DNA from: Amia ocellicauda
Lineage: Eukaryota > Chordata > Actinopteri > Amiiformes > Amiidae
Assembly: GCF_036373705.1 (NCBI RefSeq)
Contig: NC_089864.1
Coordinates: 1,606,501-1,670,500, forward strand
Reading direction: 5' to 3'
DNA length: 64,000 nt
The notes beneath the pieces are model-generated. The model ran no database searches. It was not told the origin of the DNA and saw nothing but the letters and a program-made list of their open reading frames with translations. Both the position numbers and the translations under genes were made by a program. Below are positions 18,321 to 57,379 of this stretch, piece after piece. How positions within the stretch are numbered: the stretch's first letter is position 1; every line of letters starts with the position of its first letter.

Positions 18321-21005
18321 ATAGTTAACATGCAAATGACACCCCGCCCCTCTGGTCAGTCAGCCTCTCACAGCGGTGGGGGGGCGTGATCACTTACATG
18401 GCGGCAGTGCAGTGCAGTGACAGTGTAGTGTAGTGTAGTGACAGTGTAGTGTAGTGCAGTGCAGTGTAGTGTAGTGTAGTGTAGTGCAGTGACAGTGCAG
18501 TGTAGTGCAGTGTAGTGTAGTGTAGTGTAGTGTAGTGTAGTGCAGTGACAGTGTAGTGCAGTGACAGTGTAGTGCAGTGCAGTGTAGTGACAGAGTAGTG
18601 TAGTGAAGTGCAGTGACAGTGTAGTGCAGTGACAGTGTAGTGTAGTGCAGTGCAGTGTAGTGCAGTGTAGTGTAGTGTAGTGTAGTGACAGTGTAGTGTA
18701 GTGCAGTGACAGTGTAGTGTAGTGCAGTGTAGTGCAGTGACAGTGTAGTGCAGTGACAGTGTAGTGTAGTGCAGTGTAGTGTAGTGTAGTGTAGTGCAGT
18801 GACAGTGTAGTGTAGTGCAGTGTAGTGTAGTGTAGTGTAGTGACAGTGTAGTGCAGTGACAGTGTAGTGTAGTGCAGTGTAGTGTAGTGTAGTGACAGTG
18901 TAGTGTAGTGCAGTGCAGTGTAGTGACAGTGTAGTGTAGTGTAGTGCAGTGACAGTGTAGTGTAGTGACAGTGTAGTGCAGTGACAGTATAGTGTAGTGT
19001 AGTGCAGTGACAGTGCAGTGTAGTGACAGTGTAGTGTAGTGTAGTGCCGTGCAGTGACAGTGCACTGTAGTGTAGTGACAGTGTAGTGTAGTGCAGTGAC
19101 AGTGAAGTGTAGTGCAGTGACAGTGTAGTGCAGTGTAGTGACAGTGTAGTGTAGTGCAGTGACAGTGTAGTGTAGTGACAGTGTAGTGCAGTGACAGTAT
19201 AGTGTAGTGTAGTGCAGTGACAGTGTAGTGTAGTGTAGTGTAGTGACAGTGTAGTGTAGTGTAGTGCCGTGCAGTGACAGTGCACTGTAGTGTAGTGACA
19301 GTGTAGTGTAGTGCAGTGACAGTGAAGTGTAGTGCAGTGACAGTGTAGTGCAGTGTAGTGACAGTGAAGTGTAGTGCAGTGACAGTGCAGTGTAGTGCAG
19401 TGTAGTGTAGTGTAGTGCAGTGACAGTGTAGTGCAGTGACAGTGTAGTGTAGTGCAGTGCAGTGTAGTGTAGTGTAGTGCAGTGACAGTGTAGTGTAGTG
19501 TAGTGCAGTGACAGTGTAGTGTAGTGCAGTGCAGTGTAGTGTAGTGTAGTGCAGTGACAGTGTAGTGCAGTGACAGTGCAGTGTAGTGCAGTGTAGTGTA
19601 GTGTAGTGTAGTGTAGTGCAGTGACAGTGTAGTGCAGTGACAGTGTAGTGCAGTGCAGTGCAGTGTAGTGACAGTGTAGTGTAGTGTAGTGCAGTGACAG
19701 TGTAGTGTAGTGACAGTGTAGTGCAGTGACAGTATAGTGTAGTGTAGTGCAGTGACAGTGCAGTGTAGTGACAGTGTAGTGTAGTGTAGTGCCGTGCAGT
19801 GACAGTGCACTGTAGTGTAGTGACAGTGTAGTGTAGTGCAGTGACAGTGAAGTGTAGTGCAGTGACAGTGTAGTGCAGTGTAGTGACAGTGAAGTGTAGT
19901 GCAGTGACAGTGCAGTGTAGTGCAGTGTAGTGTAGTGTAGTGCAGTGACAGTGTAGTGTAGTGCAGTGCAGTGTAGTGTAGTGTAGTGCAGTGACAGTGT
20001 AGTGCAGTGACAGTGTAGTGTAGTGCAGTGCAGTGTAGTGACAGTGTAGTGTAGTGAAGTGCAGTGACAGTGTAGTGTAGTGCAGTGCAGTGTAGTGACA
20101 GTGTAGTGTAGTGCAGTGCAGTGTAGTGTAGTGACAGTGTAGTGTAGTGCAGTGACAGTGTAGTGTAGTGCAGTGCAGTGTAGTGCAGTGACAGTGTAGT
20201 GTAGTGCAGTGTAGTGTAGTGTAGTGTAGTGACAGTGTAGTGTAGTGCAGTGACAGTGTAGTGTAGTGCAGTGTAGTGTAGTGACAGTGTAGTGCAGTGA
20301 CAGTGTAGTGAAGTGCAGTGCAGTGTAGTGACAGTGTAGTGTAGTGTAGTGCAGTGACAGTGTAGTGTAGTGTAGTGCAGTGACAGTGTAGTGTAGTGAC
20401 AGTGTAGTGCAGTGACAGTATAGTGTAGTGTAGTGCAGTGACAGTGTAGTGTAGTGTAGTGTAGTGTAGTGCAGTGTAGTGACAGTGTAGTGTAGTGACA
20501 GTGCAGTGTAGTGACAGTGTAGTGTAGTGCAGTGACAGTGAAGTGTAGTGCAGTGACAGTGTAGTGCAGTGTAGTGACAGTGAAGTGTAGTGTAGTGCAG
20601 TGACAGTGCAGTGTAGTGACAGTGTAGTGTAGTGTAGTGTAGTGTAGTGTAGTGTAGTGCAGTGTAGTGACAGTGTAGTGTAGTGACAGTGTATTGCAGT
20701 GCCACTCACTGTATATAAACCCTGCCCTGACCCTCCCACCACATTCGAAGTCTGGTGATTGTTTTTAATTAAGTTTTTACTGGGAGCCAGTGTCCACTCA
20801 GTGGGTCAGTATTACTGGGAGCCAGTGTGCACTAAGTCATCAGTGTCCACTAGCTCCACTGACCGCATCACAGAAACACAATCAGACAATTTGATGCCCT
20901 GACGCACAGAAACGCAGCTCACATTACAGGGTTACTGAAGCCCCACCCACCGCTGTGAGAGACTGACTGATCAGAGGAGCGGGACTGGATTTGCACATTA
21001 GCTAT
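18321..21005. repeat. Inverted repeat pair flanking a satellite
   Basis: The left arm (about 18321-18383) contains atgcaaat, cccgcccctctggtcagtca and cctctcacagcggtggg. The right arm (about 20941-21005) is its imperfect reverse complement (ccaccgctgtgagagactga, gaggagcgggactgg, atttgcac). The whole satellite lies between them, so the array may have grown inside a palindromic element. Confidence 0.65.
18400..20700. repeat. 2.3-kb TAGTG/CAGTG/ACAGTG satellite
   Basis: The array is built only from gtagt, gcagt and gacagt units in irregular order. A rare variant, gccgtgcagtgacagtgcac, recurs at 19046, 19266 and 19791 with the same downstream unit order. A second marker, gacagtatagtg, recurs near 18985, 19195, 19731 and 20413. 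This indicates higher-order duplication blocks of about 0.2-0.5 kb. Long minus-strand open frames (CHYT/LHYTV repeats) arise only because the units lack stops in those frames. Confidence 0.95.
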
Positions 21006-22384: not shown

Positions 22385-22545
22385 AGATTAATACATCACA
22401 GTTTGAACACATCTGAACAAACGCCCCAGCGATGTGGCTGAAGAGACAATTTGGGAACATTCAGAAACAGACGGGATAGGATCCTTGATCACTTAGTTAT
22501 TAATGGACACCAAACGAGCACAATGGGGCGAATGTTCTAGTCGTG
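22385..22545 (-). repeat. Dispersed repeat, copy 2 (inverted)
   Basis: The reverse complement matches the 8030-8160 part of the repeat at 7985-8215, including ggatcctatcccgtctgttt, the cagccacatcgctggg block and the ggtgtccattaataac block. It ends immediately before the GT-rich array. Confidence 0.65.
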
Positions 22546-22557
22546 TATAATCTGTGC

Positions 22558-22855
22558 GTGTGTGTAATGTTGGACTGTTAAACTGTGTGTGTGTGTCTGT
22601 ACTGTGTGTGTGTGTCTGTACTGTGTGTGTGTGTCTGTACTGTGTGTGTACTGTGTGTGTGTCTGTACTGTGTGTGTACTGTGTGTGTGTGTGTGTCTGT
22701 ACTGTGTGTGTGTGTGTGTCTGTACTGTGTGTGTGTGTCTGTACTGTGTGTGTGTGTCTGTACTGTGTGTACTGTGTGTGTCTGTACTGTGTGTGTGTGT
22801 CTGTACTGTGTGTGTGTGTCTGTACTGTGTGTACTGTGTGTGTCTGTACTGTGTG

Positions 22856-22886
<31 letters not shown>

Positions 22887-25800
22887 CCTGTACTGTGTGT
22901 GTGTGCCTGTACTGTGTGTGTGTGTGCCTGTACTGTGTGTGTGTGTGTGCCTGTACTGTGTGTGTGTGTGTGTCTGTACTGTGTGTGTGTGCCTGTACTG
23001 TGTGTGTGTGTCTGTACTGTGTGTGTGTGTGTGTGTGCCTGTACTGTGTGTGTGTGTGTGTGTGTCTGCACTGTGTGTGTGTGTGTGTGTGTCTGCACTG
23101 TGTGTGTGTGTGTGTGTGTCTGCACTGTGTGTGTGTGTGTGTGTGTCTGCACTGTGTGTGTGTGTGTGTGTGTCTGCACTGTGTGTGTGTGTGTGTGTGT
23201 CTGCACTGTGTGTGTGTGTGTGTGTGTCTGCACTGTGTGTGTGTGTGTGTGTGTCTGCACTGTGTGTGTGTGTGTGTGTGTGTGTCTGCACTGTGTGTGT
23301 GTGTGCCTGTACTGTGTGTGTGTGCCTGTACTGTGTGTGTGCCTGTACTGTGTGTGTGTGTCTGTACTGTGTGTGTACTGTGTGTGTGTGTGTGTGTGTG
23401 CCTGTACTGTGTGTGTGTGCCTGTACTGTGTGTGTGTGCCTGTACTGTGTGTGTGTGCCTGTACTGTGTGTGTGTCTGTACTGTGTGTGTACTGTGTGTG
23501 TGTGTGTGTGTCTGTACTGTGTGTGTACTGTGTGTGTGTGTGTATGCCTGTACTGTGTGTGTGTGTGCGTGTGTCTGCACTGTGTGTGTGTGTGTGTGTC
23601 TGCACTGTGTGTGTGTGTGTGTGTCTGCACTGTGTGTGTGTGTGTGTGTGTGTCTGCACTGTGTGTGTGTGTGTGTGTGTGTCTGCACTGTGTGTGTGTG
23701 TGTCTGCACTGTGTGTGTGTGTGTCTGCACTGTGTGTGTGTGTGTCTGCACTGTGTGTGTGTGTGCCTGTACTGTGTGTGTGTGTGTGTGTGTGTGTGCC
23801 TGTACTGTGTGTGCCTGTGTGTGTGTGCGTGTCTGTACTTTGTGTGTGTGTGTGTGTGTGTCTGCACTGTGTGTGTGTGTGTGTGTGTGTCTGCACTGTG
23901 TGTGTGTGTGTGTGTGTGTGTGTCTGCACTGTGTGTGTGTGTGTGTCTGCACTGTGTGTGTGTGTGTGTCTGCACTGTGTGTGTGTGTGTGTGTGTCTGC
24001 ACTGTGTGTGTGTGTGTGTGTGTCTGCACTGTGTGTGTGTGTGTGTGTCTGCACTGTGTGTGTGTGTGTGTGTCTGCACTGTGTGTGTGTGTGTGTGTCT
24101 GCACTGTGTGTGTGTGTGTGTGTGTCTGCACTGTGTGTGTGTGTGTGTGTGTGTCTGCACTGTGTCTGCACTGTGTGTCTGCACTGTGTGTCTGCACTGT
24201 GTGTGTGCACTGTGTGTGTGTGTCTGCACTGTGTGTGTGTGTGTGTCTGCACTGTGTGTGTGTGTGTGTGTGTGTCTGTACTGTGTGTGTGTGTGTGTCT
24301 GTACTGCACTGTGTGTGTGTGTGTCTGTACTGCACTGTGTGTGTGTGTGTGTGTGCGCCTGTACTGTGTGTGTGTGTGTGTGTGCGTGTCTGTACTTTGT
24401 GTGTCTGTACTGTGCGTGCGTCTGTACTGTGTGCGTGCGTCTGTACTGTGTGCGTGCGTCTGTACTGTGTGCGTGCGTCTGTACTGTGTGTGTGTGACTG
24501 TGTGTGTGTGTGCCTGTACTGTGTGTGTCTGTGTGTGCCTGTACTGTGTCTGTGTGTGCCTACTGTGTCTGTGTGTGTGTACTGTGTCTGTGTGTGTGTG
24601 TGTACTGTGTGTCTGTACTGTGTGTGTGTGTGTGTGTCTGTACTGTGTGTCTGTACTGTGTGTGTGTCTGTACTGTGTGTACTGTCTGTACTGTGTGTAC
24701 TGTCTGTACTGTGTGTGTACTGTCTGTACTGTGTGTGTCTGTGTCTGTACTGTGTGTGTCTGTGTCTGTACTGTGTGTGTCTGTGTCTGTACTGTGTGTG
24801 TCTGTGTCTGTACTGTGTGTGTCTGTGTCTGTACTGTGTGTGTCTGTGTGTGTCTGTGTGTGTCTGTGTGTGTACTGTGTGTCTGTGTGTGTGTGTGTAC
24901 TGTGTACTGTGTGTGTGTGTGTCTGTACTGTGTGTGTGTACTGTGTACTGTGTGTGTGTACTGTGTACTGTGTGTGTGTACTGTGTGTGTGTGTACTGTG
25001 TGTGTGTGTCTGTACTGTGTGTCTGCTGTGTGTGTGTACTGTGTGTGTGTCTGTACTGTGTGTGTGTCTGTACTGTGTGTCTGCTGTGTGTGTGTGTGTC
25101 TGTACTGTGTGTGTACTGTGTGTACTGTGTGTGCGTGTCTGTACTGTGTGTCTGTACTGTGCGTGTGTGTGTCTGTACTGTGTGTACTGTGTGTGTCTCT
25201 GTACTGTGTGTGTGTGTGTCTCTGTACTGTGTGTGTGTGTGTCTCTGTACTGTGTGTGTGTGTGTCTCTGTACTGTGTGTGTGTGTCTCTGTAGTGTGTG
25301 TCTGTACTGTGTGTACTGTGTGTGTGTCTGTACTGTGCGTGTGTGTGTGTCTGTACTGTGCGTGTGTGTGTGTCTGTACTGTGCGTGTGTGTGTCTGTAC
25401 TGTGTGTGTGTGTACTGTGTGTGTGCGTCTGTGTGTGTGTGCGTGTCTGTACTGTGTGCGTGTCTGTACTGTGTGCGTGTCTGTACTGTGCGTGTGCGTG
25501 CGTGTGTGTGTCTGTACTGTGTGTGTGTGTGTGCGTGCGTGTCTGTACTGTGTGCGTGCGTGCCTGTACTGTGTGTGTGTCTGTACTGTGTGTGTGTCTG
25601 TACTGTGTGTGTGTCTGTACTGTGTGTGTACTGTGTGTGTGTGTCTGTACTGTGTGTGTGCGTGTGTGTGTGTCTGTACTGTGTCTGTGTGTCTGTGTGT
25701 GTGTGTACTGTGTGTGTGTGTGTGTGTGTGTGTCTCTGTACTGTGTGTGTCTCTGTACTGTGTGTGTCTCTGTACTGTGTGTGTCTCTGTACTGTGTGTG

Positions 25801-27431
25801 TGTGTGTGTGTGTACTGTGTGTGTGTGTACTTTGTGTGTGTCTGTGTCTGTAGTGTGTGTCTGTACTGTGTGCGTCTGTGTGTCTGTACTGTGTGTGTGT
25901 GTGCGTCTGTGTGTCTGTACTGTGTGTGTGTGTACTGTGTGTACTGTGTGTGTGTGTACTGTGTGTACTGTGTGTGTGTACTGTGTGTGTGTGTGTGTAC
26001 TGTGTGTGTGTGTGTACTGTGTGTGTCTGTACTGTGTGTGTGTGTCTGTACTGTGTGTGTCTGTACTGTGCGTGTGTCTGTACTGTGTGCGTGTGTGTGT
26101 CTGTACTGTGTGTCTGTACTGTGTGTGCGTGCGTCTGTACTGTGTGTGTCTGTACTGTGTGTGCGTGCGTGTGTCTGTACTGTGTGCGTGTGTGTGTCTG
26201 TACTGTGTGTCTGTACTGTGTGTGCGTGCGTCTGTACTGTGTGTGTGCGTGCGTCTGTACTGTGTGTGTGCGTGTGTCTGTACTGTGTGTGTGCGTGTGT
26301 GTCTGTACTGTGTGTGCGTGCGTCTGTACTGTGTGTGTGCGTGCGTCTGTACTGTGTGCGTCTGTACTGTGTGCGTCTGTACTGTGTGTGTGTGTGTGTG
26401 TGTGTGTGCGTCTGTACTGTGTGTGTGTGCGTCTGTACTGTGTGTGTGTGTGTCTGTACTGTGTGTGTGTGTGTCTGTATTGTGTGTGTGTGTGTGTCTG
26501 TATTGTGTGCGTGCGTCTGTACTGTGTGTGTGCGTGCGTCTGTACTGTGTGTGTGTGTCTGTACTGTGTGTGTGTGTCTGTGTCTGTACTGTCTGTACTG
26601 TGTGTGTGTACTGTGTGTGTGTGTGTCTGTACTGTGTGTGCCTGTACTGTGTGTGTGTGTCTGTACTGTGTGTGTGTGTCTGTATTGTGTGTGTGTGTCT
26701 GTACTGTGTGTGTGCGTGCGTCTGTACTGTGTGTGTGTGTCTGTACTGTGTGTGTGTGTCTGTGTCTGTACTGTCTGTACTGTGTGTGTGTACTGTGTGT
26801 GTGTGTGTCTGTACTGTGTGTGCCTGTACTGTGTGTGTGTGCCTGTACTGTGTGTGTGTGTGCCTACTGTGTCTGTGTGTGCCTACTGTGTCTGTGTGTG
26901 TGTACTGTGTCTGTGTGTGTGTCTGTACTGTGTGTGTGTCTGTACTGTGTGTGTGTCTGTACTGTGTGTGTGTCTGTACTGTGTGTGTGTGTCTGTACTG
27001 TGTGTGTGTGTCTGTACTGTGTGTCTGCTGTGTGTCTGCTGTGTGTGTCTGTGTCTGTACTGTGTGTGTCTGTGTCTGTACTGTGTGTGTCTGTGTGTGT
27101 GTGTGTGTGTGTACTGTTTGTACTGTGTGTGTGTGTGTACTGTTTGTACTGTGTGTGTGTGTACTGTGTACTGTGTGTGTGTGTCTGTACTGTGTGTGTG
27201 TGTACTGTGTGTGTGTACTGTGTACTGTGTGTGTGTGTCTGTACTGTGTGTCTGCTGTGTGTGTGTACTGTGTGTACTGTGTGTGTGTCTGTACTGTGTG
27301 TGTGTCTGTACTGTGTGTCTGCTGTGTCTGTACTGTGTGTGTGTACTGTGTGTACTGTGTGTGCGTGTCTGTACTGTGTGTCTGTACTGTGCGTGTGTGT
27401 GTCTGTACTGTGTGTACTGTGTGTGTCTCTG

Positions 27432-27463
<32 letters not shown>

Positions 27464-28346
27464 CTCTGTACTGTGTGTGTGTCTCTGTACTGTGTGTGTG
27501 TGTCTCTGTAGTGTGTGTGTGTGTGTCTGTACCTGTACTGTGTGTCTGTACTGTGCGTGTGTGTGTGTCTGTACTGTGTGTGTGCGTCTGTGTGTGTGTG
27601 CGTCTGTGTGTGTGTGCGTCTGTGTGTGTGTGCGTGTCTGTACTGTGCGTGTGTGTCTGTACTGTGCGTGTGTGTCTGTACTGTGCGTGTGTGTCTGTAC
27701 TGTGTGTGTGCGTCTGTGTGTGTGTGCGTCTGTGTGTGTGTGCGTGTCTGTACTGTGTGCGTGTCTGTACTGTGTGTGTGTCTGTACTGTGCGTGTGCGT
27801 GCGTGTGTGTGTCTGTACTGTGTGTGTGTGTGCGTGCGTGTCTGTACTGTGTGCGTGCGTGCCTGTACTGTGTGTGTCTGTACTGTGTGTGTACTGTGTG
27901 TGTGTGTCTGTACTGTGTGTGTGTCTGTGTCTGTGTGTGTGTGTACTGTGTGTGTGTCTCTGTACTGTGTGTGTCTCTGTACTGTGTGTGTCTCTGTACT
28001 GTGTGTGTCTCTGTACTGTGTGTGTGTGTGTGTGTGTACTGTGTGTGTGTGTACTTTGTGTGTGTCTGTGTCTGTAGTGTGTGTCTGTACTGTGTGTGTG
28101 TGTGCGTGTGTGTCTGTACTGTGTGTGTGTGTGTGTCTCTGTACTGTGTGTCTCTGTACTGTGTGTACTGTGTGTGTGTGTGCTGTGTGTACTGTGTGTC
28201 TGTACTGTGTGTGTGTGTGTACTGTGTGTGTGTGTGTACTGTGTGTGTGTCTGTACTGTGTGTGTCTGTACTGTGTGTGTGTGCGTGCGTCTGTACTGTG
28301 TGTGTGCGTGCGTCTGTACTGTGTGCGTCTGTACTGTGTGCGTCTG

Positions 28347-28378
<32 letters not shown>

Positions 28379-28500
28379 CTGTACTGTGTGTGTGTGTGTC
28401 TGTACTGTGTGTGTGTGTGTCTGTACTGTGTGTGTGTGTGTCTGTACTGTGTGTGTGTGTGTGTCTGTACTGTGTGTGTGTGTGTCTGTACTGTGTCTGT

Positions 28501-28534
<34 letters not shown>

Positions 28535-28594
28535 CTGTGTGTCTGTACTGTGTGTGTGTGTGTGTGTCTGTGTGTGTGTGCGTCTGTGTGTCTG

Positions 28595-28625
<31 letters not shown>

Positions 28626-28652: not shown

Positions 28653-28958
28653 CTGTATTCCTGTACTCCACTCTGGGTGCCTCAGTGACAGTGCCTTGTG
28701 ACGGACTGAGAGAATATGACAACTCCTATATATCCTGGGTGTTTAAACACAGATCCGAGACAACTGTAGAACTGAGCCGTGGTGGGATGATTACAGACAC
28801 AGATCCAGACAGAGCTGGCAGACTGAGACTGGGGTCTAACAGCTCTCTGCACATAGACAGACTCAGGACACGGGACACTGGAGTGTACACCTGTCATCAG
28901 TATGTCAATGGAAAGCATTATACATCTGGATTACCTGTTACTCTCTTCCTGCTCTCCA
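28653..28958 (+). CDS. Gene B Ig domain 1 (V-like) exon
   Basis: This 306-bp exon follows tttctctccccag and ends at CTCTCCA/GTAAGT; both ends are phase 1. It encodes AVFLYSTLGASVTVPC (B strand), YISWVF (C strand), GRLRLGSNSSLHIDRL and DTGVYTCHQY (F strand), a V-set-like fold with one N-glycosylation sequon (NSS). It would be the outermost domain and the likely ligand-contact site. It closely matches gene C D1 (54287). The acceptor polypyrimidine tract is short and sits beside the 6-kb GT array. Confidence 0.92.
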
Positions 28959-29380
28959 GTAAGTGTGCAGCGACCTGATGGTTAACCATTAATTGAAAGG
29001 GTCGGTGTGTCAATTGTTATTGACACTGCAGTGTCCGAGCTGCATACATACTTCATACTTCATTCTTTATATACACACACATATACAGGTTATTTTGTAG
29101 TATTTAAACACTTTATTTAATAATAATTGTCATTAAACTATACCGAGTTGAGCCCAGAGAAAACTCTCCAGATGAGAAGGGACAGACACACATGGTGACA
29201 CTCAGACCTTCTCTCAGTCTGACCTGCAGTCTGTACAGCCCTCTCAAGGCTGAGACCTGAAACAATAAGAGGAGTTAATTAGTCTTAATGGAACATGCTT
29301 ATTAAACTAATAATTATTTTAAATGATGGATGTAACCCAGAGTATTTGCAGATGTATAACTATGTGTTTCTGTTCTCCAG

Positions 29381-29692
29381 TCTCTGTTAGTTCCAGTTCA
29401 TCTGCGTGTCTGAGGGCCGGAGACAGACTCACTCTGAAGTGTGGGCTGGACTGTGGGGGGGGCGCTGGAAGCTGCTCTGAGACCCCACAGGGATTGACTC
29501 TGTCCTGGAGGGACGAGAGCGGAGTCCCACTGAAGGACGAGAGAGACAGATACAGTATCGCAGAGCTCAGGGGAGTCCACAGTCAACTCTCGGTGACACT
29601 GGGACAGTCAGACCACAACAAGAGCTGGACTTGTGTCCTGACAGAGCGAGGCGAGATGAAGACCTCTGAGTCCTACACCACTACACTCTCAG
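29381..29692 (+). CDS. Gene B Ig domain 2 (C2-like) exon
   Basis: This 312-bp exon follows tgttctccag and ends at CTCTCAG/GTACAG, phase 1-1. It encodes GDRLTLKCGLDC (B strand), a glycine-rich loop with GAGSC, LTLSWRDESG (C strand) and SDHNKSWTCVLTERG (F strand). Two extra cysteines, at +4 and +11 from the B-strand cysteine, are likely to form a local disulphide. The paralog at 55064 keeps all of them. Confidence 0.92.
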
Positions 29693-30233
29693 GTACAGAC
29701 TCTGTGATTATTTAAAAAAAAATTCATCCTGCTCTTTCTTCACTCTCTATTGTTTCCTGCTTTTCTTTTATGGTGTTTATCCAAATTAACACATTTATTT
29801 CTTAGCACGGTTGATCTTCCTCTTTGGTGTTTTAATTACTTTTATCCATAATTTTTGCTGCTACAGAGACATTTTTGGTTTGTAATACTGTAATTCAGGT
29901 GGAGATCAGTGTCCATGTTATTGTTCTGAGTATTTTCTTATTCATGCTCATGATGTCTTTGCTGTATTTTTTTTTTAACTTCTACTTATATTTATCCCAC
30001 TTGTTCTATCCCTCTTATGTATTTTACATCTCCTTCTTTATCTTCTGGTCAATTAAATATTGCAAAATGATTGCCACCCAACTTATGTATATTCAATTTC
30101 TTGTTTTTCTTTTTAGTTTTCTAGATTTTTTATTTATTTTTTTACACAAAAATAAGAAACTGAAATGCTCCTTATGATTTACTCATAATTACAACTATTT
30201 ATTAATGTATTTCACCCTCTGCATGTGTTCCAG

Positions 30234-30554
30234 ACGAGCTGTTCTCCACAGTGGGGCGGCTCCTGCTCCTGTCCTGTGTGGCTCCTGTCAGTCTGGGACC
30301 AGGAGAGACACTGCGGTGGACCTACAGACAATCTCGTACCAGCCAGGCCGTGGTGCTGTACAGCTTAAGATCCCTGACTGAAACGCCTCTGAAAGGGACA
30401 GTCCCACACAGTGGGAGAGCGGTGATGTCAGCCAACTCCTCACTGCTGATACACAATGTGCAGACGGGGGACGCTGGGCTGTACTGCTGTCAGAGAGACA
30501 AGGACACTGGACCCAAAAAGACCCACAGGACGTTTGCTCTGAACACACTGTCAG
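30234..30554 (+). CDS. Gene B Ig domain 3 (V-like) exon
   Basis: This 321-bp exon follows gcatgtgttccag and ends at CTGTCAG/GTAAGT, phase 1-1. It encodes DELFSTVGRLLLLSC (B strand), LRWTYRQ (C strand), SGRAVMSANSSLLIHNVQ and DAGLYCCQRD (F strand). This is a V-like pattern with an NSS sequon and a doubled F-strand cysteine. The gene C version has LYRC, so the extra cysteine is specific to gene B. A decayed relative of this exon is at 36547. Confidence 0.92.
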
Positions 30555-30744
30555 GTAAGTGAAACGCAAAGAATACCTTTGAGGAACTGTAAGGGAAATC
30601 AGGAATTGAATATAATATGATTCTAAATATGGAAAGGCAAGTTATCATTTAAAGATCTTAAATATTTGAAGATTCATTTAAATCATTTACAGATATATAT
30701 ATTATAATATTTGTATATTTTGTTAATGTTAATAACCTTACAAT
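30555..30744. other. Start of the enlarged gene B intron 3
   Basis: The first 100 bp match gene C intron 3, which is only 158 bp in total (56283-56440). From about 30650 the sequence changes to AT-rich repeats with an agat-tt-aaat flavour that recur near 34395 and 34915, so everything from here to about 35780 is inserted DNA. Confidence 0.55.
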
Positions 30745-31720
30745 ACAGGTCATCAATCCCCATCCCCCTCTTCCCTTCTCCCCACACTAAGCAAAACAAT
30801 TATACAATTCAAAATTAATACAATCTTCTTTACAGTGAGGAAAGAAGAAAATAAAAATAAATAAATGCAAACAAAATAAAAAGGCACAATTACATTTACA
30901 TCTTGGTTAGAGCAGACCCCTATTATCCCCAGCACCTGTCCCATCATATCCTACAGCTAAATTCACAATTAACACTCAAGCCAATACATCAGGCTAGCAT
31001 ACTATCAGTTACTGAATATGCCACCATTACCTGGGGGAGAATCTAATTTAGGGATGTAGTTGATGAAAAGGATGAAAGGACCCCAGATTTCTTCAAACAT
31101 CTCTGGTGTTTTTCTTACCTTGTACATTATTTTTTCAGGTGTACAGTATGATGTTAATTCTTTCCACCATTGGTTTAAAGCAGGAGAATGTTCAGACTTC
31201 TAATTGACAAGAATACACTTTTTAGCTGCTGTCAATGCTAGTAGTATAAACTGTCTTTGGCAAGTATTTAAATGTGCTAACTTCCCTTCATCCCCCAGAA
31301 CAGAAACTCTAGGGTCTGGAGGGACATGGGTTCCCAACACCCTTGATACACTGAGGTATACTATCGCAGTAGGTCTTAAAGTTTGGACATATTCACAGCA
31401 TGTGCAAAAGATCCCCCAGCTCTACATCTAGGACAGTTGCAGTAACATTTTTATTGAACTGATGCAATCTTTTTGGTGTGTAGTAAGTACAGTGCAGTAT
31501 GTTGAATTGCATCAGACTATGTTTGGTGCTTGTTAGTACTTGCTGTGAGCTCTCCAGTAATGTTTCCACTCCTGCATTGTAAATTCACATTGCAAGTCCT
31601 TCTCCCATTTAACTTTAATCCCAGTGTGGCTACATGTTCGTTTAAAATGCAATACATTGTACAATCTGGATATTAACCCCTTGGGAGTTGGAATGTTAAT
31701 TATTTCATTTTCTAGTGGAG
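30745..31720 (-). pseudogene. L1/Tx1-type LINE 3' fragment, minus strand
   Basis: Minus-strand translation gives recognisable C-terminal blocks of an L1-like ORF2: WEKDLQCEFTMQEWKHYWRA, a degraded C-x-C-type segment (CNCPRCRAGG), and WWKELTSYCTPEKIMYKVRK followed by MFEEIWGPFI. The order fits the region after the reverse transcriptase through to the 3' end near 30745. It is 5'-truncated and broken by stops. Confidence 0.7.
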
Positions 31721-31907
31721 ATTCAGGAATCTCTGGAAACCGAGTTTATTCTAACCCAATTTCTAATTTGTAAGTATTTAAAAGAAATGTGTTTTCGGTA
31801 TTCTAAATATCAGTTATCTACGAAAAGCTTAACAAAAAATAGTACCTATACAGGTCTCCCAAGATGCTCTCTTCCTGCTCCAGACCTCCAAATCCCATCC
31901 ACTACAC

Positions 31908-33817
31908 CTGGACTATTCAACTGGCAGCCTGCGGGCCATATCCATCCCATTTGTCAATGTAGAATGGCCCTTTGATAAATTCTTAGCATTAATTAAATAT
32001 CTGCAGAATACTCCTTGAAAAAATCGGATGTTTGATGCCAAAATGAGCCATTATTCAATATCCTCCAATAAGATAATCTGTTTTTCTCTAGTCCCACCCA
32101 TTAAGTGCTGTCAATCAATATCAACATCAGTATCATCTGTTACTGCCAATCAGAATTGCCAAATATCCCTGGTAACCGTCGTGGTCTGCAGCTGTCTGCC
32201 ACCACAATCAAGGTATTTTAGAATTGTTTAGCACAAAGTGAAGGTGAGCTGGAAACGTGTCTCTTTCTACTCTGAAGAAAAGTAGATGATGAAAATAGGC
32301 AATTAAAAAGTGAGTGGACTGAGAAATACCGGAGGAAAGCCTATGTGCCTGCTGTGCAACATGGTCGTTTCTGTGCAAAAAGACTACAATCTAAAGAGAC
32401 ACTTTAAAACTAAACACTCACAGTTTGACATGAACTTTCCAGTTGGTTCAGATGTATGCCAAAATAAAGATAAAAACCTAACCACCTCCTATGAGCAGAG
32501 CCAGGTCACTATGGTGTGATCGTGCTCCGCACAGGAAAACGCCATGGCGGCCTCTCTCCATGTGACATGGATACTTGGTAAAAAGAAGTCCTTTTACGGA
32601 CTCTGAGACTGTGAAAGAGTGCATGCTAGCTAGAGGAGGATAAATTTGATCAGATCAACATCTAGCCTGCAACACTGCTTGTTTCCTAGTCTGCTGAGCG
32701 ACAAGTCTGCTGAGCATTATGATCTACTTCTACATAATGACGTTATGTGGTTAAGCAAGGGAAATGCTCTCAACAGTTTGTGAGCTTAGGGAGGAGATAG
32801 TTGCTTTCCTGTGCGATTACACATCTAGCGAACATGCTTGACGAGGAGTTCGTAGCACAGGTGTGTTTTTTGAGTGACATCTTCATTCACTTGAATACAC
32901 TTAATTTGGGACTACAGGGAGGGATAAAACAGTTATTGACATGATTGAAAAACTGACTGCTTTTCAGAAGAAATTAGTTATTTTCTCTTCTGCTCTGTGC
33001 CCAAATAAAAAGCTCCAGTTCCCTACACTGCACAACTATATCCACTAACTTTTCAATTAGATTTGACGAGTTTAATCTGCCCATAGAGATCATGCAGTTT
33101 GTTAAGGATCCGTTCTCTACTGATCTGGGTGGAGACTTCTCCGCACAAGCTAAACAGGTGCTGATGCCTCTCGATGAGGGTTCCCTCCAGTTGGAGCTAG
33201 TGGACATGCAGGTATCAGCTGATCTGAGGCATGCTTTTCAGTCTGTGGGCTGTGTGAAGTTTTGGACCATATTATTGCAGAGCGATTCACAAACATGAGA
33301 TCTTTGGCCTTTTTTGTTTTGACGATGTTTGATTCAACATACACGTGATTCTCTCGCATGAACGCCATAAAAACAAACGCTCGTTCCTCCTTGTCAAACG
33401 TGAATCTTCATCACTGCCTGTGAGTTGCCTAACTTTTCTACTCTTGCCCAATCTAAAAAGTGCAACTTCTCCCATTAGTAGTGAGTTAAAAAGCAGAAAC
33501 ATAAAATGTTTAGAAGTTATGTTACAAAGGAAGGTGTGATACATGGGATAAAAGTGCTTTATAAAACAATGGTTTCAAAAAAGTGCAGGTTCTCCCATTA
33601 GAAGTGAAAGACTTGTGCATGTTTATGTTAAGAAGGAAAGTGTGAAACATAAGTGTAATCGGAATAAAGGTGCATTATAAGCTTATAATTGTGTCTGCAC
33701 TGTTTTTTTTTTTTATAATTGACCTATGACGAGTAATTGTATGTAGAAAATGTCTGGCCCCCCAGACAAAACATTTTTCAAATCTGGCCCCCGTAAGAAT
33801 ATAGTTGAATAGCCCTG
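31908..33817 (+). mobile_element. hAT transposon remnant with 8-bp target duplication
   Basis: The 8-bp duplication cactacac lies at 31900-31907 and 33818-33825. The ends are imperfect inverted repeats: ctggactattcaactggc on the left and, read inward, cagggctattcaacta on the right. Inside are a BED-type zinc finger (about 32330-32435: CLLCNMVVSVQKDYNLKRHF then KTKH) and a transposase segment near 33090-33270 (FVKDPFSTDL, LELVDMQVSADLRHAFQSVG). Stops and gaps separate them, so it is dead. The style matches transposases related to GTF2IRD2/ZBED-type host genes. Confidence 0.85.
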
Positions 33818-33879
33818 CACTACACCTTTAGGAAACAAGGGGTTATCTTGTCTGCACTAATTACCTTTTACAGTCCAAG

Positions 33880-34085
33880 ATGTAAAACTTCTGTAAAAAA
33901 GTGTAGTGTATACACTTGTGTAAATTGGAATTCATTAAATGTATTATACTTTGAATTGCACTGTAATTTGTAAATTGGAATTTGTAATGTTTTATGCCTT
34001 GTACTGTAGTTTTGCACTTTGTATTGCACTTATCTTGTAAGTCGCCCTAAAAAATAAATAAATATTATTATTAATAAATTACATT
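33880..34085 (+). repeat. SINE-like tail with ATT microsatellite
   Basis: The block gcacttatcttgtaagtcgc then cctaaaaaataaataaat and att repeats is the 3' tail of the fish SINE family seen elsewhere in the window, without a clear tRNA head. Confidence 0.55.
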
Positions 34086-34394
34086 TTTCATATACACTGC
34101 CGCTGTCATATTTTCCCTATTGACTTGTCTCCGCCTTTAACGCACAGAGTTGTGGGACTTCAGTGCTAAAACTTCCGCATCAGTGCGCTCTTCTGTTCAC
34201 TCCGCTGAAGGGAGCATTGAAGGACAAACAGCGCGATTAGGCTCCTTCACTCGGTCAGTAAGGGATAGGGACAGCGCTTAAGATGGACACCGGAGTACTT
34301 CCGCCCCGCAAGGGTAGGAGACGAGGGAGCAAGTGTGCAATTTGGGACGCAGCCCCAGAAATTAATGCACAAGTGAACAGGAAGTGATAAGTAA

Positions 34395-35125
34395 TTTGCA
34401 GATCTCTTGAAATGATTTGCAGATCTTTAAATAAACAGGTGGGACCCAGTTGCAGTGCTGAGAGGGATGGTCAGACAGGTGTGGGTCGGGTACCGGCAGA
34501 ACAGGGCAATTGAGGCAAGGTGAAGACGTGGTCGTGGTCACAAGCAAGGGTCAGGCAATGAGGCAAACCGAGCAATGAGGAAAGTCCAAAGTCGTGGTCG
34601 GGAGGAAAGGCAAGGGGTCAATGATTCTAAAAGGTTATACACCAGGCTCACGGAGAATGCTTGGTGTTGTAGTGTATGCTGACAAAACTTTGCAGCGAGT
34701 GAAGGGTTTGTGGAGCAGAGAAACGAGATGAGAGGTGCAGGGCGAATGGGAGCAGGGGTGATCACAGACTGCACAAGGGTTTCAGGAATGTTGATTGACT
34801 GAAGGAGCTGGGAGAAGTGACTGACAAGGAAGGGCAATGGTGACATCTAGTGGGGAAAGTGGAAGAGGTTCAACTGGTGTAGAGTGCTGCTCTGTAGCCG
34901 TGATAACAGGAAGTATTTTACAGATAACATTAAATGTATTTCAGACATCTTTAAATGAGTTCCAGATCTAATCCAATTATTTGAAGATATCTATACATGA
35001 ATTGCAGATATTTATTTTAAAGTGGGATTGAAGATATCTTCAAAACATATAAAGATATCTGAAAAATTTAGATATCTTGAAATATTTAGATATCTTTAAA
35101 TGCATTGGAAGATATCTATAAATTA
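34395..35125. repeat. Interrupted AGATATC-rich repeat block
   Basis: Short imperfect repeats around agatatcttt/aaagatatct occur at 34395-34435 and 34915-35125, with a weaker patch at 30650-30720. Between the first two lies about 480 bp (34436-34913) of different, GC-richer sequence (from ggtgggacccagttgcag to gtgacatctagtgg) that resembles an LTR-retrotransposon-derived repeat. This reads as an older palindrome-rich repeat split by later insertions. Confidence 0.5.
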
Positions 35126-35839
35126 TAGCTTGGCTTGCCATACTTGGAGAACAAAGAAATCTGAGTTATTTAAATTATACAAATTAATTTGAGAGGCCTG
35201 GAGTAAAGGTTGTAAAAATGTCCAAAGAAAACCATTAAAGCGCTTCATGATAGGTTAGGTGAGCAATGTAAAGGAAAAATCCAGAAGTCCTGTCCTGCCT
35301 CTGTCCTTTGTGTGCCGAGACCCTGGAGTTCTCTAAAAAGAATGCAGGCAATTAATAGTTACTGTTAAAGGGAACTGTTTTTTTAACTCTTCAATTACTC
35401 CGGCCTTGGTTATGGGCAACTTACCTTACTTTTAATTGCTTCAATCCTATCTTTGCTATTGGCAAATGACCTCCCAATGCAGCTGGCAATTCAGAGGTTA
35501 TTATTCATGAGTAATGCTGATATTAATATTGATGAGATTGGAAGGCTTATTTAGAAAGCCAATGAAATCACTGCTGTAGTCATAAGGATGACCAATCAGA
35601 CACTTTGTAAAATGTCAAGCCTTTGTATTTCCTTGAGAAATTTGAACACAGTATTATACTTGCTTAATACTTTGTGTTGTGTTTTGCTGTTTATTAGAAC
35701 TGTCCACTCTAAATCTTTCTTCCAGCACAGTATCTCAGCAGGGAGTTGCCAACACGTGCTGAAACTGACACAACTTATAAGCAGAGCAATTCATAATGTA
35801 TACTGAGCCACATTAATGCAGATGTAGTTGTGTTTCCAG

Positions 35840-36118
35840 TGAGTTCAAACCTGAGTGAAGAGGCACAGAAGGGCTCTGCTGTCACCCTGACCTGCTCCCT
35901 CACCTGTGGGTTCGACTGTGAGGAAAACACTGAACTGATCTGGAGGGACAGTACAGGGAACAGCCTGCAGGGCGGCACCAGTGAGCGCAACAAGAGCACC
36001 ATCAGCTCCCAGCTGGTCCTTCAGCCCCAGAGCTCTGAGAGGATCCGGTGCAGTGTGGAGAGAGAGGGGCTGGAGAGAGTGAGCCAGGACTGGACCATAA
36101 AGATAGAGGCTGGACCAG
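35840..36118 (+). CDS. Gene B Ig domain 4 (C2-like) exon
   Basis: This 279-bp exon follows gtagttgtgtttccag and ends at GGACCAG/GTAAGG, phase 1-1. It encodes SAVTLTCSLTCGFDCEENTE then LIW (B to C strands), NKSTISSQLVLQPQSSERI (D-E strands) and RCSVEREGLERVSQDW (F strand). The C-x3-C-x3-C pattern parallels the extra cysteines of D2. It ends in a short linker (KIEAGPG) to the membrane exon. Confidence 0.92.
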
Positions 36119-36546
36119 GTAAGGAACTGGACCTGTAGTCAGTGACAGAGGAGCTTCATATCAAGATATGAGACCGGACATTATCTGCCATTTTCCTCTC
36201 TGTAATGATTTCAATGGATTGGGTTTCAGATTGGGTTGAGATCACGGCTCTGAAATAAGAAATGAGACTGAGTTGTCATCACCCACATCCAGAAGAACCA
36301 TTATATCAGTCCTCTAATGTCACCTCTGCCTCTAAACTCCCATTAAAGATCTATTCTGTCCATTGAGGATACATTTTACATGATTGTTAATGTTGAACAT
36401 TACTGTTCTGATTGAAGCTTTAATATTGATTAGCGGTTTTCTTTGGAAGAAATAGTGAACAGATGAACAGATTACATGTTTGTAATCTTAAGTATTAGTT
36501 TTCTGTAACTTTGTTTAACTGGTAAATCAACTTTTCATTATCTGAA

Positions 36547-36690
36547 GGTGTTTCAAAAGAGTTGTTTCTCACAGTAGAGGCTCCTGCTCTTGCTCTGTGT
36601 GAATACAGTCAGTCTGGAAGGAGAGACACAGCGGTGGACATATTGCCAATACATTTCTTGTGCAGTCAGAATTTCTACAGTATAATCACT
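36547..36690 (+). pseudogene. Decayed fifth Ig exon of gene B
   Basis: The segment gttgtttctcacagtagagg and the following gctcctgctcttgctctgtg, gtcagtctgg and gagacacagcggtggac track the start of the D3 exon (30234) base for base with small gaps. The acceptor AG has become aa (gtttcaaaag), and deletions break the frame. It lies between D4 and the TM exon, where a third V-like domain would be expected. Confidence 0.75.
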
Positions 36691-36749
36691 ATAATAACAA
36701 TGTAACAACCTAATGGAGGATCATTATATTACGTTTCCTTACGTTTCAG

Positions 36750-36869
36750 GTTCGGCAGGGTCTGCAGTGGAGCTGGCGGTGAGACTGACTGTGTTCTTCA
36801 TCACTCTGATCGCCCCTCTGGTCGCTGGAGCCGTGGTTTACACCAAGAGGAGGAGCAGCACACAGACAG
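36750..36869 (+). CDS. Gene B transmembrane exon
   Basis: This 120-bp exon follows cttacgtttcag and ends at CAGACAG/GTGAGT, phase 1-1. It encodes [20 protein letters not shown] then IAPLVAGAVVY and a basic anchor (TKRRSSTQT). About 19-21 residues are hydrophobic. E and R sit at the outer edge of the span (VELAVRLT), conserved in gene C. The arginine could lie within the membrane and recruit an adaptor, or be juxtamembrane. No tyrosine-based motif is present. Confidence 0.9.
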
Positions 36870-37064
36870 GTGAGTAACAGAGCAGAGCGGTCAGTGTGGA
36901 GCAGGACTGTCCTACAGGCCGGACACTGCAGTGACACATTTCAAATTGATTGCTGATCATATGTGTATATATTATATATACACATACACAGCGAGATGGT
37001 GATGCACCATGTATGCTTGAATTAAATCTAAATGTAATCACTGCAGTAATATGGTACTGCTTGT

Positions 37065-37125
37065 CCTTATGTTGTAAGTTGCCCTGAATAAGGGCGTTTG
37101 CCAAGAAATAAAAATAATAATAATA
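37065..37125 (+). repeat. SINE tail fragment
   Basis: The block ttatgttgtaagttgccctg, aataagggcgtttgccaag and an aataat run is the 3' end of the tRNA-derived SINE family. No head precedes it. Confidence 0.6.
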
Positions 37126-37176
37126 ATGACCCCTTGCCTCCTCCTGACTACAGTCTACTCTGATTGGGCCCCACAG

Positions 37177-37217
37177 AAACCGTGCCACATGGGCTGGAGA
37201 TGACCTCACATGGCTGA
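37177..37217 (+). CDS. Gene B candidate terminal exon a
   Basis: After attgggccccacag, a 41-nt coding stretch joined in phase 1 to the TM exon reads ETVPHGLEMTSHG and stops. Gene C has the same frame and stop at the equivalent place (58915). Because two alternative terminal exons both keep frame in the two paralogs, alternative tails are plausible. No ITIM, ITAM or CxC motif is present. Confidence 0.5.
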
Positions 37218-37369
37218 GTTCCTGTCCACCCTGCTATCTCCTCCCTCTGCCCCCGATGATGAGTGAAAACAGTTCCTGGAGAAAAGTTTAATTTTCCTTT
37301 GAATTACACAATGCTGTGGTATCCATTATGAATCATATTCCAAAGAAAGATTACAATGTTAATGTGGAG

Positions 37370-37520
37370 TTGTGGTCAGGGCTCTGCACTCTGGAATGGA
37401 GGGTCATGGGTTCAATCCCAGGGGGGACATACTGCTGTTGTACTCTTGAGCAAGACACTGCACTGAGATCACTGCAGTCAAAACCCAGCTGTATACATGG
37501 GTCATGGTGTGTAAAATAAC
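37370..37520 (+). mobile_element. tRNA-derived SINE (shared with gene C)
   Basis: The SINE has gttgtggtcagggctctgca (A-box region), gggttcaatccc (B box), gtactcttgagcaagacact and aaaacccagctgtatacatg. Its counterpart at 59130-59290 lies in the same place after gene C, so it was inserted before the B/C duplication. Confidence 0.75.
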
Positions 37521-37526
37521 CTTATA

Positions 37527-38411
37527 CACCGATCAACCATAACATTATGACCACCTCCCTAATATTGTTGTGGTCCAAAAACAGCCCTGACCCGTCGTGG
37601 CATGGACTCCACTAGACCTCTGAAGGTGTGCTGTGGTATCTGACACCAAGACGTTAGCAGCAGATCCTTTAAGTCCTGTAAGTTGCGAGGTGGGGCCTCC
37701 ATGGATCGAACTTGTTTGTCCAGCACATCCCACAGATGCTCGATTGGATTGAGATCTGGGGAATTTGGAGGCCAAGTCAACACCTTGAACTCGTGATTCA
37801 TCAGACCAGGCCACCTTCTTCCATTGCTCCGTGGTCCAGTTCTGATGCTCACGTGCCCATTGTAGGCGCTTTCGGCAGTGGACAGGGGTCAGCATGGGCA
37901 CCCTGACTGGTCTGCGGCTACGCAGCCCCATACGCAACAAACTGCGACGCACTGTGTGTTCTGACACCTTTCTCTCAGAACCTGCATTCACTTTTTCAGC
38001 AATTTGAGCTACAGTAGCACGTCTGTTGGATCGGACCACATGTGCCAGCCTTTGCTCCCCACGTGCATCAATGAGCCTTGGCCGCCCATGACCCTGTCGC
38101 CGGTTCACCGCTTTTCCTTCCTTGGACCACTTTTGATAGGTACTGACCACTGCAGACCGGGAACACCCCACAAGAGCTGCAGTTTTGGAGATGCTCTGAC
38201 CCAGTCGTCTAGCCATCACAATGTGGCCCTTGTCAAAGTCGCTCAGATCCTTACGCTGCCCATTTTTCCTGCTTCTAACACATCAACTCTGAGGACAAAA
38301 TGTTCACTTGCTGCCTAATATATCCCACCCACTGACAGGTGCCATGATAACGAGATTATCAGTGTCATTCACTTCACCTGTCAGTGGTCATAATGTTATG
38401 GCTGATCGGTG
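37527..38411 (-). pseudogene. Tc1/mariner transposon, catalytic core deleted
   Basis: TA sites are at 37525-37526 and 38412-38413. The TIRs begin CACCGATCAACCATAACATT. The 885-bp element encodes the DNA-binding N-terminus on the minus strand (38219 downward: [20 protein letters not shown]) to WSDES. It then jumps to the last part (37559-37852: [16 protein letters not shown]), with the middle third and second catalytic aspartate gone. It belongs to a different family from the 3031 element. Gene C has an empty site here (aataacctgatatattctaac near 59281). Confidence 0.9.
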
Positions 38412-38612
38412 TATATTGTAACATCTACTCAGATGTATTTGTGATTTTGTGTTTGTTTTTGTAAGCCAGGTGAAGTTTTTTTAGATGGATGACTGTGGCT
38501 CTGCTGTAGCTGTTTTCAAATGCCTTGATTTGACTGCATATTATTTTGTTGCAGTTTCTGACCATAATGATGATAATGCGGTTTTCCAATAAATACTTCT
38601 TGACCCCCATAG

Positions 38613-38632
38613 AGGAAGTGTCACAGACATGA
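38613..38632 (+). CDS. Gene B candidate terminal exon b
   Basis: After cttgacccccatag, the 20-nt stretch joined in phase 1 to the TM exon encodes EEVSQT and a stop. Gene C has EEMSQT and a stop at 59645. This makes a six-residue alternative tail end. The acceptor context is modest and contains an AATAAA just upstream, so it could also be 3' UTR of the upstream terminal exon. Confidence 0.4.
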
Positions 38633-45320: not shown

Positions 45321-45390
45321 ATGGCTGTGGACAGTGAGAGAGGACTTCTACTGCTGCTGCTGCTGCTCAGCACTGCTGCCCCCCTCACAG
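45321..45390 (+). CDS. Leader exon, orphan or alternative exon 1 of gene C
   Basis: A 70-bp exon from ATG to CTCACAG/GTAAGG, phase 1, encodes MAVDSERGLLLLLLLLSTAA then PLTG. It is nearly identical to the leaders at 49936 and 5414-5483. No V-like exon lies between it and the 49936 leader. It may therefore splice to gene C D1 as an alternative first exon, or be the remnant of a lost gene whose body was deleted. It keeps an intact signal sequence and donor. Confidence 0.8.
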
Positions 45391-49935: not shown

Positions 49936-50005
49936 ATGGCTGTGGACAGTGAGAGAGGACTTCTACTGCTGCTGCTGCTGCTTAGCACTGCCGCCCCCCT
50001 CACAG
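49936..50005 (+). CDS. Gene C leader exon (signal peptide)
   Basis: A 70-bp exon from ATG (context gagaggATGG) to CTCACAG/GTAAGG, phase 1, encodes MAVDSERGLLLLLLLSTAAP then LTG. It would splice in frame to the D1 exon at 54287, about 4.3 kb away, giving a secreted-pathway type I membrane protein. Of the two plus-strand leaders it is the nearer and has the better-conserved promoter. Confidence 0.88.
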
Positions 50006-52084: not shown

Positions 52085-52128
<44 letters not shown>

Positions 52129-53835: not shown

Positions 53836-53867
53836 GTGTGATGTTGGCCTGTGTTACACTGTTAGTT

Positions 53868-53898
<31 letters not shown>

Positions 53899-54258
53899 AT
53901 GCTGGACTGTGTTGCACTGTGTTAGTTCAGTGTGTACTGTCTGTGAGATGTTGGACTTTGTTACACTGTGTTAGTTCAGTGTATACTGTGTGTGTTTGAT
54001 GTTTTTGTGTGTTAGTTCAGTGTACACTGGGTATTTGTGTGTGTGTGTGTCTGTACTGTGTGTGTCTGTGCTGTGTGTGTGTGTGTGTGTACTGTGTGTG
54101 TGTCTGTGCTGTGTGTGTGTGTGTGTGTACTGTGTGTGTGTACTGTGTGTGTGTCTGTACTGTGTGTGTCTGTACTGTGTGTGTCTGTACTGTGTGTGTG
54201 TGTGTGTCTGTACTGTGTGTGTCTGTACTGTGTGTGTCTGTACTGTGTGTGTGTGTGT
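53836..54258. repeat. Gene C intron 1 minisatellite (short form)
   Basis: First come four or so degenerate units of gatgttggactgtgttacac with gttagttcagtgtgtactg. From 54040 there is about 220 bp of TGTACTG(TG)n ending about 28 bp before the D1 exon. It is the short counterpart of the 6-kb array at 22558-28626. Confidence 0.9.
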
Positions 54259-54286
54259 GATGTTCTCCTGTGCTTTCTCTCCCCAG

Positions 54287-56282: not shown

Positions 56283-56440
56283 GTAACTCAACCACAAATA
56301 ATATCCTTGAGGAGCTGTAAGGGAAATTAGGAATTTAATATAAGATGAATTTTGTGTTTCTAATTGCTAAACTATAAAAAATGTTGAAGTTGTATAATTT
56401 ATAATGAGCCAGATTAATGCAGATATATATGTGTTTCCAG

Positions 56441-57190: not shown

Positions 57191-57249
57191 TAATGTAATG
57201 TAAGGTAACATAATTTTAACATAATATAATAAAGCTGCCTCCGTTTCAG

Positions 57250-57369: not shown

Positions 57370-57379
57370 GTGAGTAAAA

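Follow-up and report, generated by a model that had tools for sequence, protein, structure and literature searches.

The closest described relatives of the receptors considered here appear to be the diverse immunoglobulin domain-containing proteins (DICPs), a family known mainly from teleosts. A 2012 study by Haire reportedly described them, according to its abstract, as having a V-type first domain (D1) followed by an immunoglobulin (Ig)-like second domain (D2), with a variable number of domains, and DICP genes are said, again from abstracts, to be clustered and linked to major histocompatibility complex (MHC) class I. Paired receptors provide the second frame of comparison. As described in part of PMC3533184, their ectodomains are nearly alike and are joined either to a tail with an immunoreceptor tyrosine-based inhibitory motif (ITIM) or to a short tail with a transmembrane arginine or lysine, which associates with an adaptor bearing an immunoreceptor tyrosine-based activation motif (ITAM); their genes are clustered, and they are expressed on overlapping immune cells (PMC3533184).

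In the present study, we analyzed a window of 64,000 nucleotides from the bowfin, Amia ocellicauda (C21:1606501-1670500), in which two tandem genes on the + strand, B and C, encode four-domain Ig receptors. The reading that we consider probable (roughly 0.7) places B and C, as activating members, in an MHC-linked cluster of DICP-related paired receptors; it is built on their architecture, kinship, clustering, and transmembrane arginine, and on an ITIM-bearing twin, gene D, with a conversion-like pattern of divergence, all of which were read from sequence. A 2021 study by Dornburg reportedly covers the DICPs and NITRs of bowfin and gar, and may already list genes B, C, and D. Among the matches listed in the openly accessible literature, none dealt with the DICPs of bowfin or with a V-C-V-C branch of four domains, and the term DICP had 0 occurrences in PMC12983459 and in PMC10320754.

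Architecture and DICP kinship of genes B and C

The public models of gene B (P0002) and gene C (P0001) agree with our reading of the domains and tails and differ slightly in the D4 acceptor; the gene C product is 99% identical over its full length to Amia ocellicauda LOC136771907. The exons, in window positions, are as follows.

10305-10380, + strand: gene B leader exon (MRSPLFPLLISLSCLSEWAQRLGVE, then G before GTAAGG; 100% match to the P0002 N-terminus)
28653-28958, + strand: gene B D1, V domain (splice borders; V-set match)
29381-29692, + strand: gene B D2, C-like domain with extra cysteines (splice borders)
30234-30554, + strand: gene B D3, V domain with its disulfide kept and its acceptor shifted by 9 nt (splice borders; public model)
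35840-36118, + strand: gene B D4, C-like domain with a TCSLTC..C motif (P0002 starts slightly more upstream)
36750-36869, + strand: gene B transmembrane exon with arginine (splice borders; comparison of transmembrane exons)
37177-37217, + strand: gene B tail exon to the stop (ETVPHGLEMTSHG, then the stop; public model)
49936-50005, + strand: gene C leader exon (splice border; public model)
54287-54592, + strand: gene C D1, V domain (splice borders; public model)
55064-55366, + strand: gene C D2, C-like domain (splice borders; public model)
55953-56282, + strand: gene C D3, V domain (splice borders; public model)
56441-56719, + strand: gene C D4, C-like domain (P0001 acceptor slightly further in)
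57250-57369, + strand: gene C transmembrane exon with arginine (splice borders; comparison of transmembrane exons)
58915-58955, + strand: gene C tail exon to the stop (EAVPQWMEMTSHG, then the stop; public model)

In both genes, Ig exons in the order V-C-V-C are followed by one transmembrane exon and a short tail, and the V1, C1, V2, C2, and transmembrane exons all have lengths that are multiples of 3, with phase-1 joins and AG/GT flanks. V-set matches scored 56.6 and 71.1 bits against a Pfam cut-off of 26, the other Pfam families found were Ig_3, ig, and I-set, and NCBIfam gave no match for P0001 or P0002. D3 retains both of its cysteines, D2 and D4 have additional ones, and the tails (..TETVPHGLEMTSHG and ..TEAVPQWMEMTSHG, approximately 20 residues) contain no cysteine and no CxC motif. 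The original prediction, made from the letters alone, had described this V-C-V-C series with its membrane segment and short tail, phase 1-1 joins throughout, a kept D3 disulfide, extra cysteines in the C-like domains, and a tail without CxC, and the exon borders and public models bear it out on each of these points. It had also placed two genes in 28653-38632; that interval holds gene B only (coding exons from D1 to the stop at 28653-37217, the leader lying 18 kb upstream of V1), and gene C extends over 49936-58955.

The same prediction left the family unassigned, whereas B and C can probably be assigned as DICP-related on the basis of BLASTP and of matches to named DICPs. A protein search with gene C returned 17 matches, comprising bowfin paralogues, Polyodon, Acipenser, Huso, gar, and four percomorph sequences; most were V-C-V-C, with P0012, P0013 (partial), and P0016 having two domains. 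A second search, started from the two-domain forms, returned 70 matches, and a third, with an alignment query that included one bait row, returned 237, among the 120 listed of which P0103, P0105, P0184, and P0192 were named DICP. The remaining matches were mostly uncharacterized or automatically named (SIRP beta-1-like, sialoadhesin-like, CEACAM, contactin-3, and obscurin-like). The search of fish proteins and Ig profiles that had been proposed earlier did recover V-C-V-C relatives in other fishes, and the best-named kin belong to a known family, the DICPs. In BLASTP comparisons with the four named DICPs, D1-D2 of gene A, a neighboring gene at the left end of the window, gave E values of 1e-35 to 3e-32 (38% identity to DICP 3.1, E 1e-35), and D1-D2 of gene C gave 6e-20 to 1e-11 (33% over 214 aa to DICP 3.1, E 6e-20). 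Gene A thus resembles a canonical two-domain member of the family, with B and C apparently forming a long branch.

Regarding the age of this branch, trees were built from 36 V and 36 C domains hand-picked from the retrieved proteins; P0003, P0007, P0008, P0009, P0011, P0013, P0017, and most later matches were left out as near-copies, as fragments, or for brevity, and gene D, a near-copy of B, is in neither tree. Nine D3 domains from the long forms of bowfin, gar, paddlefish, sturgeon, and percomorphs fell on one side of the V tree (Shimodaira-Hasegawa-like approximate likelihood-ratio test, SH-aLRT, 99), and nine D4 domains of long forms did likewise in the C tree (100/98). The second halves of the four-domain proteins of Leuciscus and Misgurnus grouped with their own first halves; by this placement, these proteins are recent tandem copies. 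D3-D4 of the long forms would be an old, separate V-C pair common to sturgeons, paddlefish, gar, percomorphs, and bowfin. One long form, P0009 of Acipenser sinensis, is modeled with C-type lectin domains joined to the DICP-like ectodomain, which is perhaps an annotation merge.

The V-type D1 and Ig-like D2 described for DICPs are present in B and C. Extra cysteine pairs, one in D1 and another in D2, occurred in 15/15 aligned two-domain rows, including the four named DICPs, a mark that is our own observation from the two-domain alignment; gene A, by reading, also has the D1 pair. The long forms of sturgeon and paddlefish and bowfin B, C, and E have no extra D1 pair and a differently placed D2 cysteine, and B and C were consequently filed as a DICP-related long branch. 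The usual pattern is found in gar long forms and, for D1, in 2/3 percomorph long-form rows. In bowfin, gene F (C21:1598796-1601608, - strand) has a long ectodomain with a gene-A-type D1-D2 carrying the usual D1 and D2 cysteines; it is possibly of the older long type, and bowfin seems to hold both cysteine types of the long form. A candidate membrane span of gene F lies near 1598596, its outer end without arginine.

The MHC-linked cluster and the ITIM-bearing gene D

Genome match counts given here are lower bounds. D1 of gene C had at least 17 matches in the 988-Mb genome, 16 of them on C21 at 1.593-1.890 Mb and 1 on C19; the cluster spans approximately 300 kb. MHC class I domains had at least 49 matches, 23 of them on C21, the nearest of which ends at 1,302,771, leaving 290 kb to the closest D1 exon. 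An exon-by-exon map was drawn for C21 1,585,001-1,840,000 (255 kb), on either side of which the cluster may extend, with members to the right represented by D1 and transmembrane exon matches alone; this stretch contains seven activating-type transmembrane exons, four gene-A-type tails with an ITIM and an immunoreceptor tyrosine-based switch motif (ITSM), one of which has F for Y in the first motif, and one sturgeon-like ITIM tail, that of gene D. At C21:1702139-1706810, the cluster also includes a V-C-V-C copy that is broken by stops and has lost its frame. Off the cluster, C19:36504707-36511516 holds a copy of a long activating gene (D1, D4, and transmembrane exons matched), and two weak D4-like matches (35%) were seen at C11:30669722 and 30692023.

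The membrane span of B and C starts with VELAVRLT(V/M), which places an arginine at its outer end, and an arginine in this position is typical of pairing with an ITAM adaptor. The transmembrane exon had 10 matches in the genome. C21 accounts for nine, at 1.643-1.867 Mb, of which two fall outside the stretch that was mapped, and the tenth is on C19, approximately 0.5 kb past a D4 exon; all 10 sit at loci of the B/C receptor family. The arginine is kept in 7/7 copies read and is also present in relatives from gar, paddlefish, Huso, and Albula. The tail had been called minimal, and it is short; with the conserved arginine, it looks activating rather than empty. The transmembrane arginine and short tail of B and C would suit association with an ITAM adaptor, as described for the short-tailed members of paired receptors.

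The tandem arrangement of B and C had been noted from the start, and the relevant partner was missed: gene D (C21:1586284-1595295, - strand), which lies outside the window, 11-20 kb to the left. Only 8/1191 compared bases differ between the four Ig exons of D and those of B. Downstream of them, gene D has a span without arginine, followed by an exon that ends in a stop and encodes VNYTSV and VIYSAV, which were read against the consensus forms of ITIM and ITSM. Between B and D, V1 differs at 3/306 bases, C1 at 3/285 (285 of 312 exon bases compared), and the intron that separates them at 3/420; of approximately 306 synonymous sites, 1 differs. Divergence rises to 14.4% of 111 aligned bases after C1 and 13.5% of 126 after C2, similar to the 12% seen when two introns are compared between B and C. 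Since identity falls sharply past the exon blocks, the shared ectodomain blocks point to gene conversion. A second, two-domain pair is found at C21:1767051-1772193 (- strand, transmembrane arginine) and 1784901-1792514 (+ strand, ITIM), with 99.6% identity over 4015 bp and divergence before the transmembrane exons. Relatives in sturgeon and gar also occur as arginine and as ITIM forms, the long forms P0006 and P0008 (sturgeon) and P0011 (gar) having ITIM-like tails on similar ectodomains. In sequence, the B/D pair fits the description of paired receptors in the part of PMC3533184 cited above, with like ectodomains on a transmembrane arginine in one and an ITIM in the other.

In the mechanism we propose, the ectodomain would consist of two stacked V-C pairs, of which D1-D2 is of the DICP type and rests on D3-D4, a pair of ancient divergence, and contact with the ligand would most likely be made through the face of D1 (and D3) that resembles complementarity-determining regions. 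The outer-end arginine may hold an ITAM adaptor of the FcR-gamma or CD3-zeta type that carries the signal, and gene D, with nearly the same ectodomain on an ITIM tail, may give an opposing signal on a ligand shared with B, gene conversion presumably keeping the two ectodomains alike. MHC class I and lipids are candidate ligands, and B and C would be expressed in leukocytes. DICP domains bind lipids according to the discussion of Haire 2012 in a passage of PMC6869251, and zebrafish dicp genes are used as natural killer (NK)-like markers in a passage of PMC5340972.

Sequence diversity, alternatives, and other features of the window

D1 of B and C differs at 17/102 residues (23 nonsynonymous changes), all 17 of which lie within 60 face or loop codons and 0 in the other 42, a descriptive count because the region was drawn from model strands after the differences were seen; in the predicted fold, they occupy strands C, C', F, and G and the BC, CC', DE, and FG loops. 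The ratio of nonsynonymous to synonymous rates (dN/dS) for this domain is 2.2 (dN 0.111, dS 0.050; one-sided Fisher p = 0.10, not significant alone), with p = 0.04 for C-E and 0.26 for B-E, the three tests being dependent. Diversifying selection was not adopted from these values alone. In D3, the C-C'-C'' and FG region accounts for 34.8 of the 38.8 nonsynonymous and 11.2 of the 14.2 synonymous differences between B and C, and the loops have proportions of synonymous and nonsynonymous differences (pS and pN) of 0.25 and 0.28, respectively; since synonymous changes are also high, exchange of older segments, not point selection alone, is likely. D4 has a dN/dS of 0.42. Gene E is 97% identical to B in D1 and 58% in D3 at the DNA level, which suggests that the exons have separate histories, and the framework identity of B and C may be owed largely to gene conversion. 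The original prediction of a near-identical framework with differing loops, to be examined through dN/dS by region, holds for the location of the D1 differences; the D1 ratio fell short of significance, and the D3 loops are also rich in synonymous changes. Its description of diversifying immune receptors was right, and the loop diversity is real, the dN/dS for D1 of B and C alone not being significant.

A number of points weigh against the activating, DICP-related reading of B and C. D3-D4 of gene C matched named DICPs only with E values of 0.07, 0.11, and 0.66, DICP 3.1 not being listed, and B and C are without the D1 cysteine pair of canonical two-domain DICPs. The V tree came from a quick search that drew a program warning about long branches joining, and both trees are unrooted and contain no other fish Ig family. 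The exons of gene D were read from genomic DNA, the donor site of its transmembrane exon is weak, and the matches retrieved included no public model for it. The arginine is located at the edge of the span, which, together with a tail of approximately 20 residues without known motifs, also fits receptors that do not signal and serve as decoys or in adhesion, competing for ligand with the ITIM twin. We regard this as unlikely, since paddlefish, Huso, gar, and Albula share the conserved arginine and transmembrane exon with bowfin, and all genome matches of that exon are at loci of this receptor family. It is highly improbable that either gene is decaying: the original D3 acceptor of gene B is mutated (CTGCAT where gene C has CTGCAG), a long microsatellite lies in its 18-kb first intron, and the cluster has a broken copy not far away, whereas both frames are open, the replacement acceptor 9 nt downstream is in frame, and both genes have public models.

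Membership in the CD4/LAG3 family, which would make B and C MHC class II-binding co-receptors of bowfin, is very unlikely. The best fold match of a predicted model was the CD4/LAG3-like V-C-V-C arrangement with rigid tandem V-C pairs, which may reflect how few V-C-V-C chains have been solved. The CxC Lck motif occurs in the tails of CD4-1 and CD4-2 and is not reported for LAG3, and CD4/LAG3 have a conserved locus with GNB3, USP5, CDCA3, and others (PMC4470515). We rejected this membership on the lack of CxC in either tail, the absence of a CD4 family from the 8 Pfam families listed per gene up to E 1, and sequence rank, neither CD4 nor LAG3 being in the best 60 of 2735 PDB sequences by sequence profile; the retained D3 disulfide, the strong DICP matches, and the MHC-linked multigene cluster also argue against it. 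The earlier judgment that the four-domain plan resembles CD4/LAG3 and is not CD4 is thus upheld. Other Ig receptor families (NITR, LITR, CD300/pIgR-like, FcRL, or SIRP) are given hardly any credence. V or C-type domains are common to all of them, the sequence profile gave distant PDB matches to pIgR and SLAMF6, and some matches are automatically named after SIRP beta-1, sialoadhesin, CEACAM, or contactin-3; these mammal-type names vary between matches, and among the matches listed, four were named DICP and none NITR, LITR, CD300, or FcRL. NITR, CD300, and TREM did not appear in the 50 listed rows of either of two fold comparisons, a result that speaks neither for nor against them. The mark of NITRs is a J-like motif at the end of the V domain, and they were rejected because gene C D1 ends in ..TVILFLLS and D3 in ..FALNTLS, without this motif.

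The part of gene A within the window comprises four exons.

5414-5483, - strand: gene A leader exon (exon read)
4470-4784, - strand: gene A D1, V domain of a two-domain DICP-type receptor (cluster exon map; BLASTP)
1671-1979, - strand: gene A D2, C-like domain (cluster exon map; BLASTP)
326-436, - strand: gene A transmembrane exon, outer end without arginine (cluster exon map)

Its ITIM/ITSM tail lies at C21:1605233-1605358, 1.1-1.3 kb past the left end of the window. The microsatellite in the first intron of gene B is GT-rich, of approximately 6 kb (window 22500-28620, unit CTGTACTGTGTG), and a shorter one of a similar kind lies upstream of gene C V1. The last coding exon of gene B is followed by a transposon-like relic, presumably Tc1-like, and then by AATAAA at 38588. 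Transposase-like frames, which we take to be Tc1/mariner-like, occur at 3063-4103 (-), 11031-12031 (-), 37545-38282 (-), and 46896-47813 (+), one of them an unbroken open reading frame of 346 aa. An orphan leader exon at 45321-45390 (+) encodes a protein sequence identical to the gene C leader, and no V exon was matched between it and gene C's own leader. A long tandem array at 18368-20805, which has no stops in any of the three minus frames and gives TLHCHY-type repeats, is likely a minisatellite and not a gene.

Comparison with known systems

The reading of B and C as DICP-related activating receptors would bring DICPs into the paired-receptor frame in a fish whose lineage did not undergo the teleost genome duplication. 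One locus would combine MHC linkage, conversion as a likely mechanism, and activating and inhibitory twins whose ectodomains are almost the same. The long branch would also date four-domain V-C-V-C receptors before the sturgeon-neopterygian split. A broader proposal is that the DICP V-C unit and its doubled form are germline, MHC-linked paired-receptor relatives from whose stock CD4/LAG3 arose, the doubled form pre-dating that split. It draws on the rigid V-C tandem geometry predicted to be common to both groups, and we consider it quite unlikely as a whole; the predicted CD4/LAG3-like geometry makes the origin of the co-receptors addressable by structures and domain trees.

Among known systems, the mammalian paired receptors LILR, KIR, PILR, and CD200R resemble B, C, and D in having nearly identical ectodomains on activating members (short tail, charged transmembrane segment) and inhibitory members (ITIM) of one cluster, and differ in that their ectodomain family is unrelated. 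NITRs are likewise fish germline V-domain receptors, from which B and C differ in the lack of a J-like motif and in the V-C-V-C order. CD4 and LAG3 have the same domain order and a similar predicted rigid V-C geometry, whereas B and C keep the D3 disulfide, belong to an MHC-linked multigene cluster, and have a transmembrane arginine and ITIM twins; compared with CD4, they are also without CxC and without a CD4 Pfam match. The named cypriniform DICPs have in common with B and C the V-type D1 followed by an Ig-like D2, clustering, ITIM members, similarity in D1-D2, and, reportedly, MHC linkage; the difference lies in the second V-C pair, which appears to be ancient in B and C and a recent repeat of D1-D2 in the two cypriniform four-domain proteins.

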